NCBI GenBank assembly: GCA_903882665.1
Contig: CAIRXW010000037.1
Location: 1-32,074 of the forward strand
Source: an uncultured Chlorobiaceae bacterium
GTDB lineage: Bacteria; Bacteroidota; Chlorobiia; Chlorobiales; Chlorobiaceae
DNA length: 32,074 bases
Direction of reading: 5' to 3'
A model generated the notes under the pieces. It made no database searches. It had not been told where the DNA came from and saw nothing but the letters and a program-made list of their open reading frames with translations. Shown in pieces: positions 232 to 17,459 of this stretch. The position numbers were made by a program, and so were the translations under genes. Numbering within the stretch: position 1 is the stretch's first letter; every line of letters begins with the position of its first letter.

Positions 232-3200
232 CTACTCATTGGCTATATGGTAGTTTACCATCCTGATTACCGTTAATTGTGAACCATAACGAAGAAAAGC
301 ACGTTCTCCCGTATCAATAAAACCCATGGATTCATAGAATCTTAAAGATGACATCTGGCGTTCAGGAATCAGAATTTCCATCCTCTCAGCCCCTTTCGAG
401 CTAGCCCACTCAAACGTCTTTTGAAGAAATAATTCATTTAATCCTTTATAGCTTAAATCTGAATCACTCCACATCCATCTCAGATAAGCAAGAGAGGAAT
501 CCTTTGAATCAATTTTCACTGCTGCATATCCTATGCATTTTTTATCCTCATACGCAAAAATGATCGTATCATTTGGAGAATTAACCATAAAAGCCAACAA
601 CCGTATCCAGTATGAATCCGGTTCACCCTTAATCTGATCAATGGTAGCAACAAATGAATCCGGAGAATCCTTGATTGAGCGCAAAGAAATATCTTTTAAC
701 AGATTACTGTCTTCTGAATTAACAGTCCGAAAAAACACATTATTAAAAACAGGCCTTGATTCCTCAATTTCAAGACTTAAAGCTCTGTCAATTGCATGTC
801 TCAACTTTTTTGCTACTGTTTTCACATATGGCTCTTCGAAAATGCCTACATGATTGCCAAGACAATCAATGATCTCCAGACCACCCAATGAAACATCTCC
901 CCATCCAAATTGAGGATCTATGCAGGAATTAAATTCAATAGCTCTTTCATGACTTCTGAAAAGAGTAATTTTTCCTGAATATGCTTCTGGAACATAATGT
1001 TGTGAAGCCTCTTTGTTTGCGTTCCATGCAGCAAATTCTTTCAGTGCAACGGACATATAACCGGCTCTTCCTGTAAATTTGTAGTAGCGTATCAACGTTC
1101 GCAAATACAAATGGTGTACTTTTTGTTTAAAAACAAGCCATTTATATTTCACTTTTGAAAAAACTTTCTTCGCAAGATAGGATACCCCTTGACTTTGCCA
1201 TTGTTCATGATGCTTAATTAACCTGCTTTTTGCATCCATTTTTTTATATCCGCTTGACAACATGCTGTCCAGAAGCGCTACAAAACGAATATCATCTCCA
1301 TTTAAACGCATCTGCCTTGCCATTTCAAATGCAACAAGACCTCCAACAGAAAATCCAATAAGCAGATACGGCCCTTCAGGATAAATTTCCTTTACCTCTC
1401 GAATATAAAATCGCGCAAGATCTTCAACCCGGTTTCTCACTTGAGGCTGTTTATCAAGCAGATGAATCGAAAGTCCGTAAATCGGTCGTTCCGGCCCAAG
1501 GTATTTAATCAGGGGTCTGCAAAACTTCAGACCCGTGCCAAGAACGTGGATAAAAAATAATGGTGGCAGGAGGTTGTCAGCAACACCCGGCTGAATGCAT
1601 ACCATTGAAGAGATGTTTTTACGCCATGAATCCTCTCTTATCCGGTGGGCAAGCTCTTCAATGGTCAATGCCTGAAAAAGAGCTGATAGAGTAATCTTGC
1701 TTGTGATTTTTTCCTGAATTCGCAAAAGCAGCCTTACGGCTAAAAGAGAGTGGCCACCAAGTAAAAAAAAATCCTCCTTGATCCCTATTGGATGAACGCC
1801 AAGAACTTCCTCCCATATTTCAACAAGCATTTTTTCAATGTGATCCCTTGGAGGTACATAGCTGCTTTTTTTTTCAAATATCCTGTGAGGCGAAGGAAGT
1901 GCATTCCGGTCTGTCTTGCCATTGGAGGTCATTGGTATTTTGTTCAGAAAAACAAAAGCCGACGGAATCATATAAACTGGCAATGTCTGAAGCATAAAAG
2001 ATTGAAGCTCGTCCGTATTGACGCTGAAGGCTTTATTACAGACAACATAAGCCACCAATCTTTTTAAACCAGGCTGATCCTCCCGAAGCATCACAACCGC
2101 TTCACATATATTTGGATGACGTCTCAAAACCGTTTCAATCTCACCAAGTTCAATCCGGTATCCCAGATATTTAATCTGAAAATCTTTTCTTCCTGCAAAA
2201 ACCAGATTGCCATCAGCAAGAGCATAAGCAAGGTCTCCCGAGCGATACATCCGGCACTCTTTATCCTGACAGCATGGATCTGCAACAAAGAGACGTTCAT
2301 TCAGCTCAGGCTGGTTCAGATAACCTCTTGAAACACCAATACCTCCAATGCAAATCTCCCCGATCTCACCTTGAGCAACTTCATCCCCCTCCTCACTGAG
2401 AAGATGGATATGTACATTTTGCAATGGCTTGCCAACAGGTGTATTTTCATACTCTGTGCTTGCAGGATCTACCGTATAAAAAGTTGCGCAAACAGCAGTT
2501 TCGGTAGGGCCGTAGGCGTTGATGATTTTAAGTTGCGGAACTGCGGAGAGAATGTTCAGCATCAGTTTATGGGATATGGACTCAACCCCCGTCACTAAAC
2601 ATCGCAACTCACTTTTATCAGGATTTTTTTCTACCCATTGCTGAAAATCTGAAATCATCATCGGAGGAAGGAAGGCGCTTGTAATATGATTGTCATGCAG
2701 CCAATCCATTAAAGAGGGTGCATCAATACGAACATGATCAGGAACAATGACAAGCGCCGCGCCAGAGAGCAATGAAGAGAAAATTTCGAGAACAGATGCA
2801 TCAAAATTAAGGCTTGCCCACCAACAACAGCGATCCTTTGGGCCAAGGGAATGACGTCCCTGCATGTCATCCAGCAGATTTATAACCCCCTTGTGATGAC
2901 AACAGACACCTTTGGGTTTTCCCGTCGTCCCCGAAGTATAGATCACATATGCCGGGTCACCTGAACCAGATGCTGGAAATGGACAGAATGACATTGAAGT
3001 AGAGGGTTGGCCTTGATCTCCGTCCATGAACACCAAAGATGATGAACAAAAAGAGAGCCTCTCCTGAAAGAGATGCTGAGTCAGAATGACTGACAGAAAG
3101 GCATCATCAATGATATATTTAAGTCGTTCAACTGGATATTCCGGGTCAAGAGGGACATAGGCACAACCAGCTTTAAGAATCCCGAGAATAGCGATGATTA

Positions 3201-3462
3201 CCTGTGAAGATCGCTTCAAAAAAACGCCGATAAACGACCCTGGCTTGACTCCCGTATTCAACAGGGAGCGAGCAACATTATTTGCTTTACCATCCAGTTC
3301 CCTGTAGGTCAGCTTGTATTCCCCTCGAATAACGGCAATATTTTCCGGACCTGAAGCCACCCGTGCCTCAAATAGTTCATGAAGGCATTTGGTTATATCA
3401 TAATACTTGAGAGGCGTACATATACCATGACTGATACAACAGGAAGAAACTATTGGTTTCAT
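232..3462 (-). CDS. NRPS-like protein: adenylation, carrier, thioesterase and C-terminal GNAT domain
   Basis: A 1076-residue single-module nonribosomal peptide synthetase-like enzyme that should activate an amino acid as adenylate, load it on a carrier and release it. Domains in order: adenylation at about 20-520 with core motifs YTSGTTGKPKG, NAYGPTET, GYRIELGEIE and NGKTDRNALP; carrier domain with the phosphopantetheine site LGGHSLL, serine near 572; type I thioesterase with GFSVGG (serine near 705), a following Asp in ALLDS and His in GNHVGIF; GNAT acetyltransferase from about 950 to the end (GYAAVKID, RFYESMGF). There is no condensation domain. I chose the ATG at 3462; the frame is also open to a TTG at 3510 and neither has a clear RBS. 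It is divergent from hisF with no biosynthetic neighbours in view, so the product is unknown. Domain calls are firm, function is inference. Confidence 0.9.
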   Translation of the reverse strand: MKPIVSSCCISHGICTPLKYYDITKCLHELFEARVASGPENIAVIRGEYKLTYRELDGKANNVARSLLNTGVKPGSFIGVFLKRSSQVIIAILGILKAGCAYVPLDPEYPVERLKYIIDDAFLSVILTQHLFQERLSFCSSSLVFMDGDQGQPSTSMSFCPFPASGSGDPAYVIYTSGTTGKPKGVCCHHKGVINLLDDMQGRHSLGPKDRCCWWASLNFDASVLEIFSSLLSGAALVIVPDHVRIDAPSLMDWLHDNHITSAFLPPMMISDFQQWVEKNPDKSELRCLVTGVESISHKLMLNILSAVPQLKIINAYGPTETAVCATFYTVDPASTEYENTPVGKPLQNVHIHLLSEEGDEVAQGEIGEICIGGIGVSRGYLNQPELNERLFVADPCCQDKECRMYRSGDLAYALADGNLVFAGRKDFQIKYLGYRIELGEIETVLRRHPNICEAVVMLREDQPGLKRLVAYVVCNKAFSVNTDELQSFMLQTLPVYMIPSAFVFLNKIPMTSNGKTDRNALPSPHRIFEKKSSYVPPRDHIEKMLVEIWEEVLGVHPIGIKEDFFLLGGHSLLAVRLLLRIQEKITSKITLSALFQALTIEELAHRIREDSWRKNISSMVCIQPGVADNLLPPLFFIHVLGTGLKFCRPLIKYLGPERPIYGLSIHLLDKQPQVRNRVEDLARFYIREVKEIYPEGPYLLIGFSVGGLVAFEMARQMRLNGDDIRFVALLDSMLSSGYKKMDAKSRLIKHHEQWQSQGVSYLAKKVFSKVKYKWLVFKQKVHHLYLRTLIRYYKFTGRAGYMSVALKEFAAWNANKEASQHYVPEAYSGKITLFRSHERAIEFNSCIDPQFGWGDVSLGGLEIIDCLGNHVGIFEEPYVKTVAKKLRHAIDRALSLEIEESRPVFNNVFFRTVNSEDSNLLKDISLRSIKDSPDSFVATIDQIKGEPDSYWIRLLAFMVNSPNDTIIFAYEDKKCIGYAAVKIDSKDSSLAYLRWMWSDSDLSYKGLNELFLQKTFEWASSKGAERMEILIPERQMSSLRFYESMGFIDTGERAFLRYGSQLTVIRMVNYHIANE

Positions 3463-3761
3463 AAGCTGTCCATTGAAACTACTTAGAGTATCGCGTTTTC
3501 TTTTCAACAAAAAAAGATCATAGAGAGTTTCCAGCGTATTTCAGATACTTGTCACAATCCCATCCACATTCTGCTCTCCGGCTAACAACCACAAGAGAGC
3601 GGAGCAATTGCCTGCTTCAACTCTTTCTTCTACTGAACACAATGATGAGTTCCGAAAAAGATGCATACATCGCCATCAATGAAAATAATGGTTGTAGAGT
3701 TCGAACTTTATTGATTTCTTGTGTCACGGTTTTCAACAATGCATTTCAGCTCTATACGTCC
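3463..3761. other. Divergent intergenic region between NRPS-like gene and hisF
   Basis: This stretch of about 300 bases must carry the promoters of both flanking genes. The hisF frame stays open back to a TTG at 3549, but that extension has no resemblance to HisF and is probably non-coding. A bulged inverted repeat (3572-3580 with 3600-3606, TGCTCtCCG against CGGAGCA) is the only structure noticed. No clear -10/-35 pair was identified. Confidence 0.4.
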
Positions 3762-4517
3762 ATGTTAGCCAAGCGGATCATACCCTGTCTCGATGTACGT
3801 GACGGCAGGGTGGTAAAAGGAATAAACTTTGAAGGATTGAGAGATGCTGGTTCCATCCTCGAACAGGCACGCTTCTACAACAATGAACTGGCCGATGAGC
3901 TTGTTTTTCTTGATATTTCAGCATCACTTGAGTCGCGCAAAACAACACTTGAAGAGGTTCTGAAAGTCTCCGGAGAGGTATTCATCCCTCTCACTGTCGG
4001 CGGCGGGATCAGTTCGGTTGAGCGGGCCCGGGAGGTCTTTCTGCATGGTGCCGACAAGGTGTCTGTCAATACCGCAGCGGTCAACGACCCCGTCCTGATT
4101 TCGCGGATTGCAGAAAAATACGGATCGCAAGCCGTTGTGGTTGCCATCGATATCAAGAAAAACGGGGATGATTACCTTGTCTACACACATTCCGGGAAAA
4201 ATCCAACCTGCTATGAAGCACTCGAATGGGCACATAAGGTTCAGGAACTTGGTGCCGGTGAAATTCTTCTGACCAGCATGGACCGGGACGGCACCAAAGA
4301 GGGGTATGACAACGATATTCTCAGCAGAGTATCAACGTCCGTGCATATTCCCGTCATCGCATCCGGAGGTGCGGGAAATCTTGAACACCTCTATGACGGA
4401 TTTACAAAAGGCCACGCTGACGCAGCACTTGCGGCCTCGATCTTCCACTTCCGGCAACACTCAATCCTTGAGGCAAAGGAGTACCTGCGAGAGAGAGGAA
4501 TCCCTGTCCGGATCTGA
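3762..4517 (+). CDS. hisF: Imidazole glycerol phosphate synthase cyclase subunit HisF
   Basis: HisF closes the imidazole ring in histidine biosynthesis, using ammonia from HisH to turn PRFAR into imidazole glycerol phosphate and AICAR. The 251-residue product has the normal family length and begins [12 protein letters not shown], placing the catalytic aspartates at D11 and D130 (VVVAIDIKK). Phosphate-binding loops TVGGGISS and IASGGAGN are present. The ATG at 3762 is chosen because it gives the canonical N-terminus; the open frame extends 71 codons further upstream without homology. Its stop lies nine bases from the convergent PPK2 stop. No other his genes are in the window, so the gene is isolated from a his operon here. 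Confidence 0.97.
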
Positions 4518-14844: not shown

Positions 14845-15186
14845 TCATTTGTCAGCCTGAAAAACAATATCATCCAGCGTTAAGTTCAGCGCTTTGGCAA
14901 CAGCCAATAATACTTCCGTAGTTCCGGTCCGTTTACTGGTTTCGATTTGCGACAAATATGGCGTACTTATTTCCGCCACTTCGGCTAATTGTTGTTGCGT
15001 CAACCCGCGATATTCACGCCATACTTTAACCGGATTTTCACCATCCAATAAAGCAAAAGTAACTTCACCGGGAATAAGTTCTTCTTTGCCTTGCTCAATT
15101 GCCGTTTTGACAGAATCATAATCGCGTATATCCTGCAACATTTCCGCGTCATCAGTGAGTTGCACGTATAAGTCATACGGTAACAT
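14845..15186 (-). CDS. XRE-family HTH protein, antitoxin-like
   Basis: A 113-residue protein with an N-terminal extension (about 1-55) and a C-terminal Cro/C1-type helix-turn-helix (VWREYRGLTQQQLAEVAEIS, then YLSQIETSKRTGT). This layout is common in antitoxins that accompany RelE-type toxins, with the N-terminal part contacting the toxin. Here no toxin gene directly abuts it; instead its first 14 bases overlap the end of another antitoxin gene (15173-15517), so it is the third cistron of a toxin/antitoxin cassette. Autoregulation is likely but no operator was identified. Confidence 0.82.
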   Translation of the reverse strand: MLPYDLYVQLTDDAEMLQDIRDYDSVKTAIEQGKEELIPGEVTFALLDGENPVKVWREYRGLTQQQLAEVAEISTPYLSQIETSKRTGTTEVLLAVAKALNLTLDDIVFQADK

Positions 15187-15517
15187 GATTCTTATTCTTT
15201 GTATAGGAAGTGGTTACCTGGCAGTTGATTCCCTCACTCTTCTTTATTGCCTGAATAACCAGAAACAGGTTTTCCATTCTCGGATTACCCGATGGCGCCA
15301 GCATACGGTGTAGACTTTTACTTGATTTATCAAGTGTTTTAGCCAGCCCTTCAAAACCAATGGTCGAATGTACGATATCCCGCAGAAGCGCTTTACCAAC
15401 TGCTGTTTCACCTTCAAGAAAAGCGTTAATAGCCTCTTCAAATAAAGCCGCACGAAATTCCGGATCGCGCTCAACCCGAGCTTTTATGGTTTCCTTGTAT
15501 GATCGACTTAATGGCAT
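15173..15517 (-). CDS. Type II antitoxin, HigA-like addiction-module antidote (COG3636-like)
   Basis: A 114-residue helix-turn-helix protein of the putative addiction-module antidote family (COG3636/TIGR02684-like). The HTH covers about 53-80 (GFEGLAKTLDKSSKSLHRML, then GNPRMENL). The start has a strong RBS (GAGGAG seven bases upstream on the minus strand). It follows its presumed toxin by 17 bases, the toxin-first order typical of HigBA-like pairs, and overlaps the next antitoxin-like gene by 14 bases. It should neutralise the toxin and repress the operon. Confidence 0.85.
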   Translation of the reverse strand: MPLSRSYKETIKARVERDPEFRAALFEEAINAFLEGETAVGKALLRDIVHSTIGFEGLAKTLDKSSKSLHRMLAPSGNPRMENLFLVIQAIKKSEGINCQVTTSYTKNKNHVTV

Positions 15518-15534
15518 GATAGTCTCCTCACCTT

Positions 15535-15876
15535 TTATTTCCGGATTGTTTTATTAACTGCCTGATGTTCTTCCCAAAGCTTTTTTGCCTTGTCAATAGC
15601 TTTTTTCTGCTCTTTTTTGCTGCTGCCACCAAGCAATAACAGGATAAAGTCATCCTCTTTTGCAAAGTATATCCTGTATCCTGGACCGAAATCGAGTTTT
15701 ATTTCTGATAATGCAGAGCCGATGGGCGCAACATTTGAATAGTTCCCATGAACAACACGCTCTAAATATACAGCCGCTCTTGCTGCTGGCACGGAATCAA
15801 GGGAATCAAACCAATCCCTGAACGGGCAGTTCCCATTTTGATCCACGTATTCTAAAACCTCGACTTTTGTACCCAT
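15535..15876 (-). CDS. Type II toxin, RelE/HigB-like addiction-module killer protein
   Basis: A 113-residue protein of the phage-derived Gp49/HigB-like RelE superfamily (TIGR02683-like). The N-terminus reads VEVLEYVDQNGNCPFRDWFDSL, and the central part has LDFGPGYRIYFAKEDDFILLLLGGSSKKEQKKAI, here quoted only as the GPGYRIYF and LLLGGSSKKEQ motifs that define the family. Related toxins cleave mRNA, mostly at the ribosome. It is the first gene of the cassette; the ATG at 15876 has an AAGAG-type RBS. Confidence 0.88.
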   Translation of the reverse strand: MGTKVEVLEYVDQNGNCPFRDWFDSLDSVPAARAAVYLERVVHGNYSNVAPIGSALSEIKLDFGPGYRIYFAKEDDFILLLLGGSSKKEQKKAIDKAKKLWEEHQAVNKTIRK

Positions 15877-17180: not shown

Positions 17181-17459
17181 TTACCTCTTCAAGTCTCGAT
17201 AGAAATTTTCGTGTGGCCCAACGGCTTCGAGATAAACCAGTCGAACGCTGTCGTCGAGAGTATATCCGAGCAGATACAATTGGCCTGCGCTGTGAAACTT
17301 GTAGACATAAAATGTTGCCAGATCGCCCCTTTTACGATCTCCGATTTCAGGACTTTGCTGTACCTTCTCAACAGCAGCATCCACATCGGCTGCGGTGTTG
17401 TTGTGAAGCTTTTTATATTGCCTGGCAAATCTGCGCGTTTGCCGAACTGACCAACTCAT
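17181..17459 (-). CDS. RelE/ParE-superfamily toxin
   Basis: A 92-residue small basic protein. The N-terminus WSVRQTRRFARQYKKL and the core VYKFHSAGQLYLLGYTLDD followed by VYLEAVGPHENFYRDLKR have the RelE/ParE pattern of a helical N-terminus and a C-terminal beta-sheet. Its ATG shares one base with the stop codon of the upstream antitoxin (TAATG), so the two are translationally coupled. Whether it acts on mRNA (RelE) or gyrase (ParE) is not decided by sequence. Confidence 0.85.
   Translation of the reverse strand: MSWSVRQTRRFARQYKKLHNNTAADVDAAVEKVQQSPEIGDRKRGDLATFYVYKFHSAGQLYLLGYTLDDSVRLVYLEAVGPHENFYRDLKR

Follow-up and report, generated by a model that had tools for sequence, protein, structure and literature searches.

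What does a protein do that can activate, load and release an amino acid, has no condensation (C) domain and ends in a GNAT acetyltransferase domain, and how did it arise? Such a protein is encoded near one end of a 32,074-nt contig from an uncultured member of the Chlorobiaceae; the stretch analysed, here termed the window, is the whole of this contig (C37). The source organism is a green sulfur bacterium, as its genome encodes the FMO protein, which is also encoded in all other searched genomes of the order with the exception of one incomplete assembly. Comparison with relatives makes it probable, with real room for doubt, that the gene is a natural contraction of a two-module Chlorobiaceae NRPS, whose loading and release parts still work and whose GNAT domain is a relic. 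The features of the locus are listed below; A1, T1 and A2, T2 denote domains of the first and second modules of the two-module enzymes.

1-167 (3-167 also given), plus strand: 3′ end of a membrane-protein gene, with its homologue in G021 some 250 bp away from the region upstream of hisF
232-3462, minus strand: complete A-T-TE-GNAT gene, 1,076 codons, ATG start at 3462, TTG alternative at 3510, N-terminus aligned with relatives
3388-3462, minus strand: leader, aa 1-25, including 'GICTPLKYYDITKCLHEL', common to the start of the two-module enzymes
1897-3387, minus strand: adenylation (A) domain, core aa 26-420 and C-terminal subdomain aa 424-522, orthologous to A1, pocket DALFVGAVCK
1864-1899, minus strand: seam without T1-C-A2 in the A-T linker, aa 522-533, A1-like upstream and module-2-like downstream (sliding identity and subtrees)
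1648-1866, minus strand: carrier (T) domain of T2 type, LGGHS with Ser572 at nt 1749-1747 (Pfam, alignment, tree)
763-1590, minus strand: thioesterase (TE) with intact triad Ser705-Asp732-His871 and long helical lid (Pfam, motifs, model)
235-729, minus strand: GNAT-fold C-terminal domain with a degenerate acetyl-CoA loop, S-Y-K-G-L-N, at aa 1004-1009, nt 453-436 (Pfam, alignment, model)
3762-4517, plus strand: hisF, the divergent flanking gene, conserved in the genus

Gene and domain content

The open reading frame extends on the minus strand from an ATG (3462-232) or from a TTG (3510-232). The ATG is the better start, since the N-terminus read from there, MKPIVSSCCISHGICTPLKYYDITKCLHELF, matches those of the relatives, MKQGTGDLENRYGIATPLRHYDLFQCLHELF, without gaps. 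A first-pass annotation of the sequence had described an A-T-TE protein that ends in a GNAT domain and lacks a condensation domain; the intact frame bears this out. In a Pfam search the protein displays, in this order, AMP-binding (269 bits), AMP-binding_C, PP-binding, Thioesterase and Acetyltransf_1 (34 bits, against a cut-off of 20.7), and no Condensation domain was found in it. In an AlphaFold model the last 174 residues adopt a GNAT fold (pLDDT 84), and the best PDB match by Foldseek is PaiA, 1tiq (E 4e-13). The catalytic residues are intact in the A domain (equivalents of Asp235 and Lys517, together with the core motifs), in the carrier domain (Ser572) and in the TE (Ser705, Asp732 and His871).

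The window protein and the start of the two-module proteins have in common an unusual N-terminus, GIxTPLxYYDIxxCLHELF. Thus the missing C domain would simply reflect an initiation module, and the leader can be read as the N-terminus of such a module, with no remnant of a C domain.

Relatives of the gene

The survey for homologues covered 61 genomes, comprising that of the window and those of 60 relatives; outside the source genome, G033 (48%) and G005 (47%) gave the best matches. G301, G065 and G081 display A-T-C-A-T-TE-GNAT in a single protein of about 2,160 residues, an architecture obtained from a Pfam run for G301 and by alignment for the other two. In the single-contig genome G197 a frameshift divides the corresponding gene (L063:7894-14380) into frames of 1,288 and 876 residues, and the closely related G065 copy is intact. 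G321 displays C-A-T-TE-GNAT. The A-T-TE-GNAT of G328, which belongs to the window's own genus, is truncated by the contig, and a PPTase gene comes after it. The TE is found without a GNAT domain in the two-module proteins of G184, G033 and G239 and in the single-module proteins of G250 and G005. The NRPS genes of G033 (L033-L034), G005 (L035-L036) and G239 (L089) each end a large exopolysaccharide cluster rich in glycosyltransferases.

A search of 394 genomes of the phylum with the GNAT domain only yielded six further close carriers, all from the same family and all within large synthetases. It had been considered that the homologues might consistently lie in long NRPS clusters, as one module among many; most of them proved to be single genes encoding one or two modules. 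A scan of genome contigs with the whole protein gave only distant Bacteroidota NRPS fragments and no GNAT fusion. In the plasmid collection no record covers both TE and GNAT; the matches there, at about 35%, are to A-T-TE modules from NRPSs of cyanobacteria and proteobacteria. A literature search on NRPSs of green sulfur bacteria returned almost nothing.

Mosaic origin and the seam

The two halves of the window protein resemble different modules of the two-module enzymes. The A domain shows 57-60% identity to A1 of G301, G065, G081 and G197 and 37-38% to A2, whereas the T domain shows 63-71% identity to T2 and about 36% to T1. Sliding identity switches from module 1 to module 2 at aa 522-535. 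Subtrees agree, placing the A core (100/100) and the A subdomain (97/95) in the A1 clade and the T domain in the T2 group (89/96). The TE is 44-54% identical to the second-module TEs and has the motif GTGLKFC in common with them. The block absent from the window protein is exactly T1-C-A2.

An ancestor of the form A1-T1-C-A2-T2-TE-GNAT, the architecture found in four relatives, would account for these data if T1-C-A2 was lost in frame and A1 was thereby joined to T2; the seam is read from the sequence and the direction of change is suggested by parsimony. The reverse direction, whereby a single-module A-T-TE-GNAT is ancestral and gave rise to the two-module enzymes when a T-C-A block was inserted behind its A domain and ahead of its T domain, is a less probable but live rival. 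The boundaries of the block would be identical for insertion and deletion, and in the drawn tree the window A domain is the first branch inside the A1 clade. However, the two-module forms of G184 and G301 have orthologous A2 domains, and A2-T-TE-GNAT is also present in G321 and, within the window's genus, in G328. In addition, in trees whose root is not fixed, the single-module protein of G250 is nested next to a two-module one, so that contraction clearly occurs.

The seam could also be produced if a two-module gene had collapsed over repeated A/T segments during assembly. The contig is from a draft of 57 contigs, repeated modules are a known hazard, and the two modules of G033 have exact runs of about 50 nt in common. 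In G301, G065 and G081, the closest relatives by A1, such inter-module runs do not exceed 14 nt; moreover, the frame is kept at a domain boundary, there is no orphan T1-C-A2 in the source assembly, and G250, from another genus, shows the layout again. Collapse of the window gene is thus unlikely, and strongly so.

Probable repeated contraction

The G250 protein, from the sister genus, is an A1-T2-TE of 905 residues with a PPTase-like gene directly downstream. Its domain origin and order are like those of the window protein, to which it is 52% identical over 891 aa, but it has no GNAT domain and retains the pocket DVYYLGGICK. The nearest relative of G250 in both the A and the T-TE trees is the two-module G184, and a clade joining G250 with the window is rejected in both (p-AU 1.1e-4 and 2.6e-5). 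These tests reject a common origin and would give the two layouts separate origins. The single-module form of G005 is a third one, and its seam is elsewhere: an A core with the G033 A1 pocket is followed by the A subdomain and T-TE of module 2. Thus similar shrinkage seems to have taken place separately in at least one related bacterium.

Loss of T1-C-A2 may not be the whole history of the window gene. Its T-TE groups with the GNAT-less G033, G239 and G005 (100/97), but its A domain groups with the GNAT-bearing type, and these conflicting groupings make a more complex recombination history possible. Uniting all GNAT-bearing forms in one clade of the T-TE tree was rejected (p 5e-4 when G321 is included and 3e-3 without it). 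The GNAT domain therefore probably either was there early on, with losses in two lineages, or has been exchanged.

The GNAT domain

The GNAT tail of the window protein would be an inheritance from the two-module ancestor. Six relatives display R-G-[KAH]-G-x-[GA] in the acetyl-CoA loop, whereas the window has S-Y-K-G-L-N. With a change from R-G-K-G-L-G to S-Y-K-G-L-N the R/Q-x-x-G-x-G/A signature loses its initial Arg and final Gly, two of its three positions. The Pfam score of the domain is 34 bits, against 61-72 in the relatives. At 158 sites, 18 changes are private to the window at positions invariant in the other five sequences, compared with 0-1 in G328, G301, G065 and G081; the distant G321 GNAT also has 18 private changes, yet it retains the loop. 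Because of the substitutions in the loop, the window GNAT domain is probably an inactive relic.

PaiA, a B. subtilis acetyltransferase, is the closest solved GNAT to that of the window by both sequence and fold. It has 20% identity to the window domain, but is free-standing and has an intact Q-K-H-G-L-G loop.

The adenylation pocket

Alignment to GrsA gives the window A domain the pocket DALFVGAVC plus Lys, the same residues as had been picked out by eye in the first-pass annotation, and the hydrophobic character stated there is real. The A1 pocket of the relatives is DVYYLGG[IV]CK. A search of the PMC literature with DALFVGAVCK, DVYYLGGIC and other codes gave no match. Asp235 is the amino-group anchor of amino-acid-activating A domains, and pockets for keto acids lack it. 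The window A domain keeps Asp at the equivalent position, and an identity as an alpha-keto-acid quinone or furanone synthetase was rejected on this basis.

The A2 pocket is DGEDIG[TS]VVK in all six other GNAT carriers (partial in G328). These codes differ by one or two residues (DGEDIGTVVK by one) from DGEDHGTVVK, which is given among Lys-activating domains (PMC12283262), and the A2 pocket is accordingly described as Lys/Orn-like by sequence. The probable substrate of the ancestral GNAT domain was an amine in a dipeptide that contained Lys or Orn. With A2 gone and key acetyl-CoA-binding residues lost, the domain in the window would be a hitchhiker.

These observations bear on the proposal that the protein is a one-protein route to an N-acylated amino acid. 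The domain order, the missing C domain, the hydrophobic pocket and the GNAT tail on which that proposal was built all hold; it is weakened by the probable origin of the protein as a two-module remnant, by the inherited GNAT domain and by the degenerate loop. In view of the missing Lys/Orn-like A2 and the degraded acetyl-CoA loop, a single-protein route to N-acetyl amino acids is unlikely. In its fullest form, a functional synthetase would load a hydrophobic amino acid, acetylate it by GNAT on the carrier or after release, and free the N-acyl amino acid by TE. An intact frame, intact A, T and TE motifs and a GNAT fold predicted with good confidence suit such an enzyme. The acetyl-CoA loop without the first Arg and last Gly of R-x-x-G-x-G/A does not, every other GNAT carrier has a Lys/Orn-like module, and the single-module G250 and G005 proteins lack any GNAT domain. 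We regard such a synthetase as very improbable.

Loading, release and possible transfer

Under the contraction reading, the intact motifs suggest that the enzyme would activate a hydrophobic amino acid and load it onto the carrier, and that the TE would free it, either through hydrolysis or by passing it to a second aminoacyl group or other acceptor. In the model the TE has a long helical lid and comes structurally closest to Pks13 thioesterases, to which it is about 20% identical. The Pks13 thioesterase transfers an acyl chain to trehalose. A speculative extension, which we hold to be a long shot, is that the repeatedly arisen single-module A1-T2-TE proteins are working aminoacyl transferases whose TE passes a hydrophobic amino acid to an external acceptor, e.g., an exopolysaccharide sugar. 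The hints for this are the Pks13-like TE, the NRPS genes in exopolysaccharide clusters of G033, G239 and G005, and a glycosyltransferase beside hisF in G024 and G010. The latter resembles one adjoining the NRPS of G033, and is a weak hint of an exopolysaccharide context.

It should also be considered that the window gene may be a non-functional remnant heading for loss, for which there is a small but appreciable chance. The same gene family is broken in G266, where a decayed remnant is found (L092:7552-8993, contig C8). The family has a patchy distribution, with matches to the TE/GNAT query in 18 of 86 family genomes, and the GC content of the window gene drops from 44% in the A domain to 37% in the GNAT domain, in a contig of 48%. 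Against this, the gene has 1,076 stop-free codons and retains all catalytic residues of A, T and TE, and G250 has an intact single-module form adjoining a PPTase-like gene.

Genomic setting

The homologue of the membrane-protein gene in G021 has no NRPS gene between it and the hisF region. The G021 locus is thus an empty site, and relative to it the window NRPS gene is an insertion. The first-pass annotation found no pathway among the neighbours. This stands inside the window; however, the contig ends 231 nt past the stop codon of the A-T-TE-GNAT gene, and the 3′ neighbour is beyond view. The 141 bases with which the window begins are repeated at the beginning of contig C24, and this accounts for the break. 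Elsewhere in the window, on the minus strand, a gene for an HTH protein (14845-15186) is beside two small open reading frames, which resemble an addiction-module pair (region 14845-15876), and a separate ParE-like toxin (115 bits) is at 17181-17459.

A nearby PPTase gene had been suggested as a check. None adjoins the window gene, and the source genome has an Sfp-like PPTase at C42:86992 and an AcpS-like one at C23:170907; in G328, G250 and G033 a PPTase gene does adjoin the homologue. The C domains of the source genome are confined to an NRPS of 4,184 residues on C42 (G000:C42:91016-103564; L040:1016-13564), which has four A domains and lies near the Sfp-type PPTase gene. This type of NRPS is conserved in size (4,184-4,230 aa) in at least nine genomes of the genus. 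Large NRPS clusters on single contigs are also found in the genus (G010:C81, G012:C2, G007:C37, G015:C3 and G021:C20), with frames of about 4,185, 3,187, 1,725, 1,557 and 1,180+ aa in one region; no description of them was found in the searched literature.

Comparison with known systems

A natural NRPS shrinkage with a visible seam and intact two-module relatives helps to show which junctions evolution tolerates. Repeated contraction, with decay of the acetyltransferase upon loss of the presumed Lys/Orn module, connects a tailoring domain with its substrate in a way that can be tested.

Relative to the two-module Chlorobiaceae NRPSs (G301, G065, G081 and G197 with GNAT; G184, G033 and G239 without), the N-terminus, A1, T2, TE and GNAT of the window protein are orthologous to those of the GNAT-bearing type. 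It differs in that it lacks T1-C-A2, has an altered A1 pocket (DVYYLGGICK to DALFVGAVCK) and has a degenerate GNAT loop.

In layout the protein is also similar to the non-reducing NRPS-like A-T-TE enzymes, i.e., fungal quinone and furanone synthetases such as AcyN, and bacterial RalA, which have no C domain and in which bond formation and release are both done by the TE (PMC9047271). However, those enzymes activate aromatic alpha-keto acids (PMC9047271), whereas the window protein keeps Asp235 and would derive from a true peptide synthetase.

A natural module deletion inside an NRPS, as proposed for the window, has a precedent in nodularin synthetase, a probable descendant of microcystin synthetase in which two modules have been deleted (PMC8097286, fig. 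1d). The window protein differs in that only one module, lacking a C domain, is left, and its seam is in the Asub-T linker, at an interface that in a broad survey was usually kept intact (PMC8097286).
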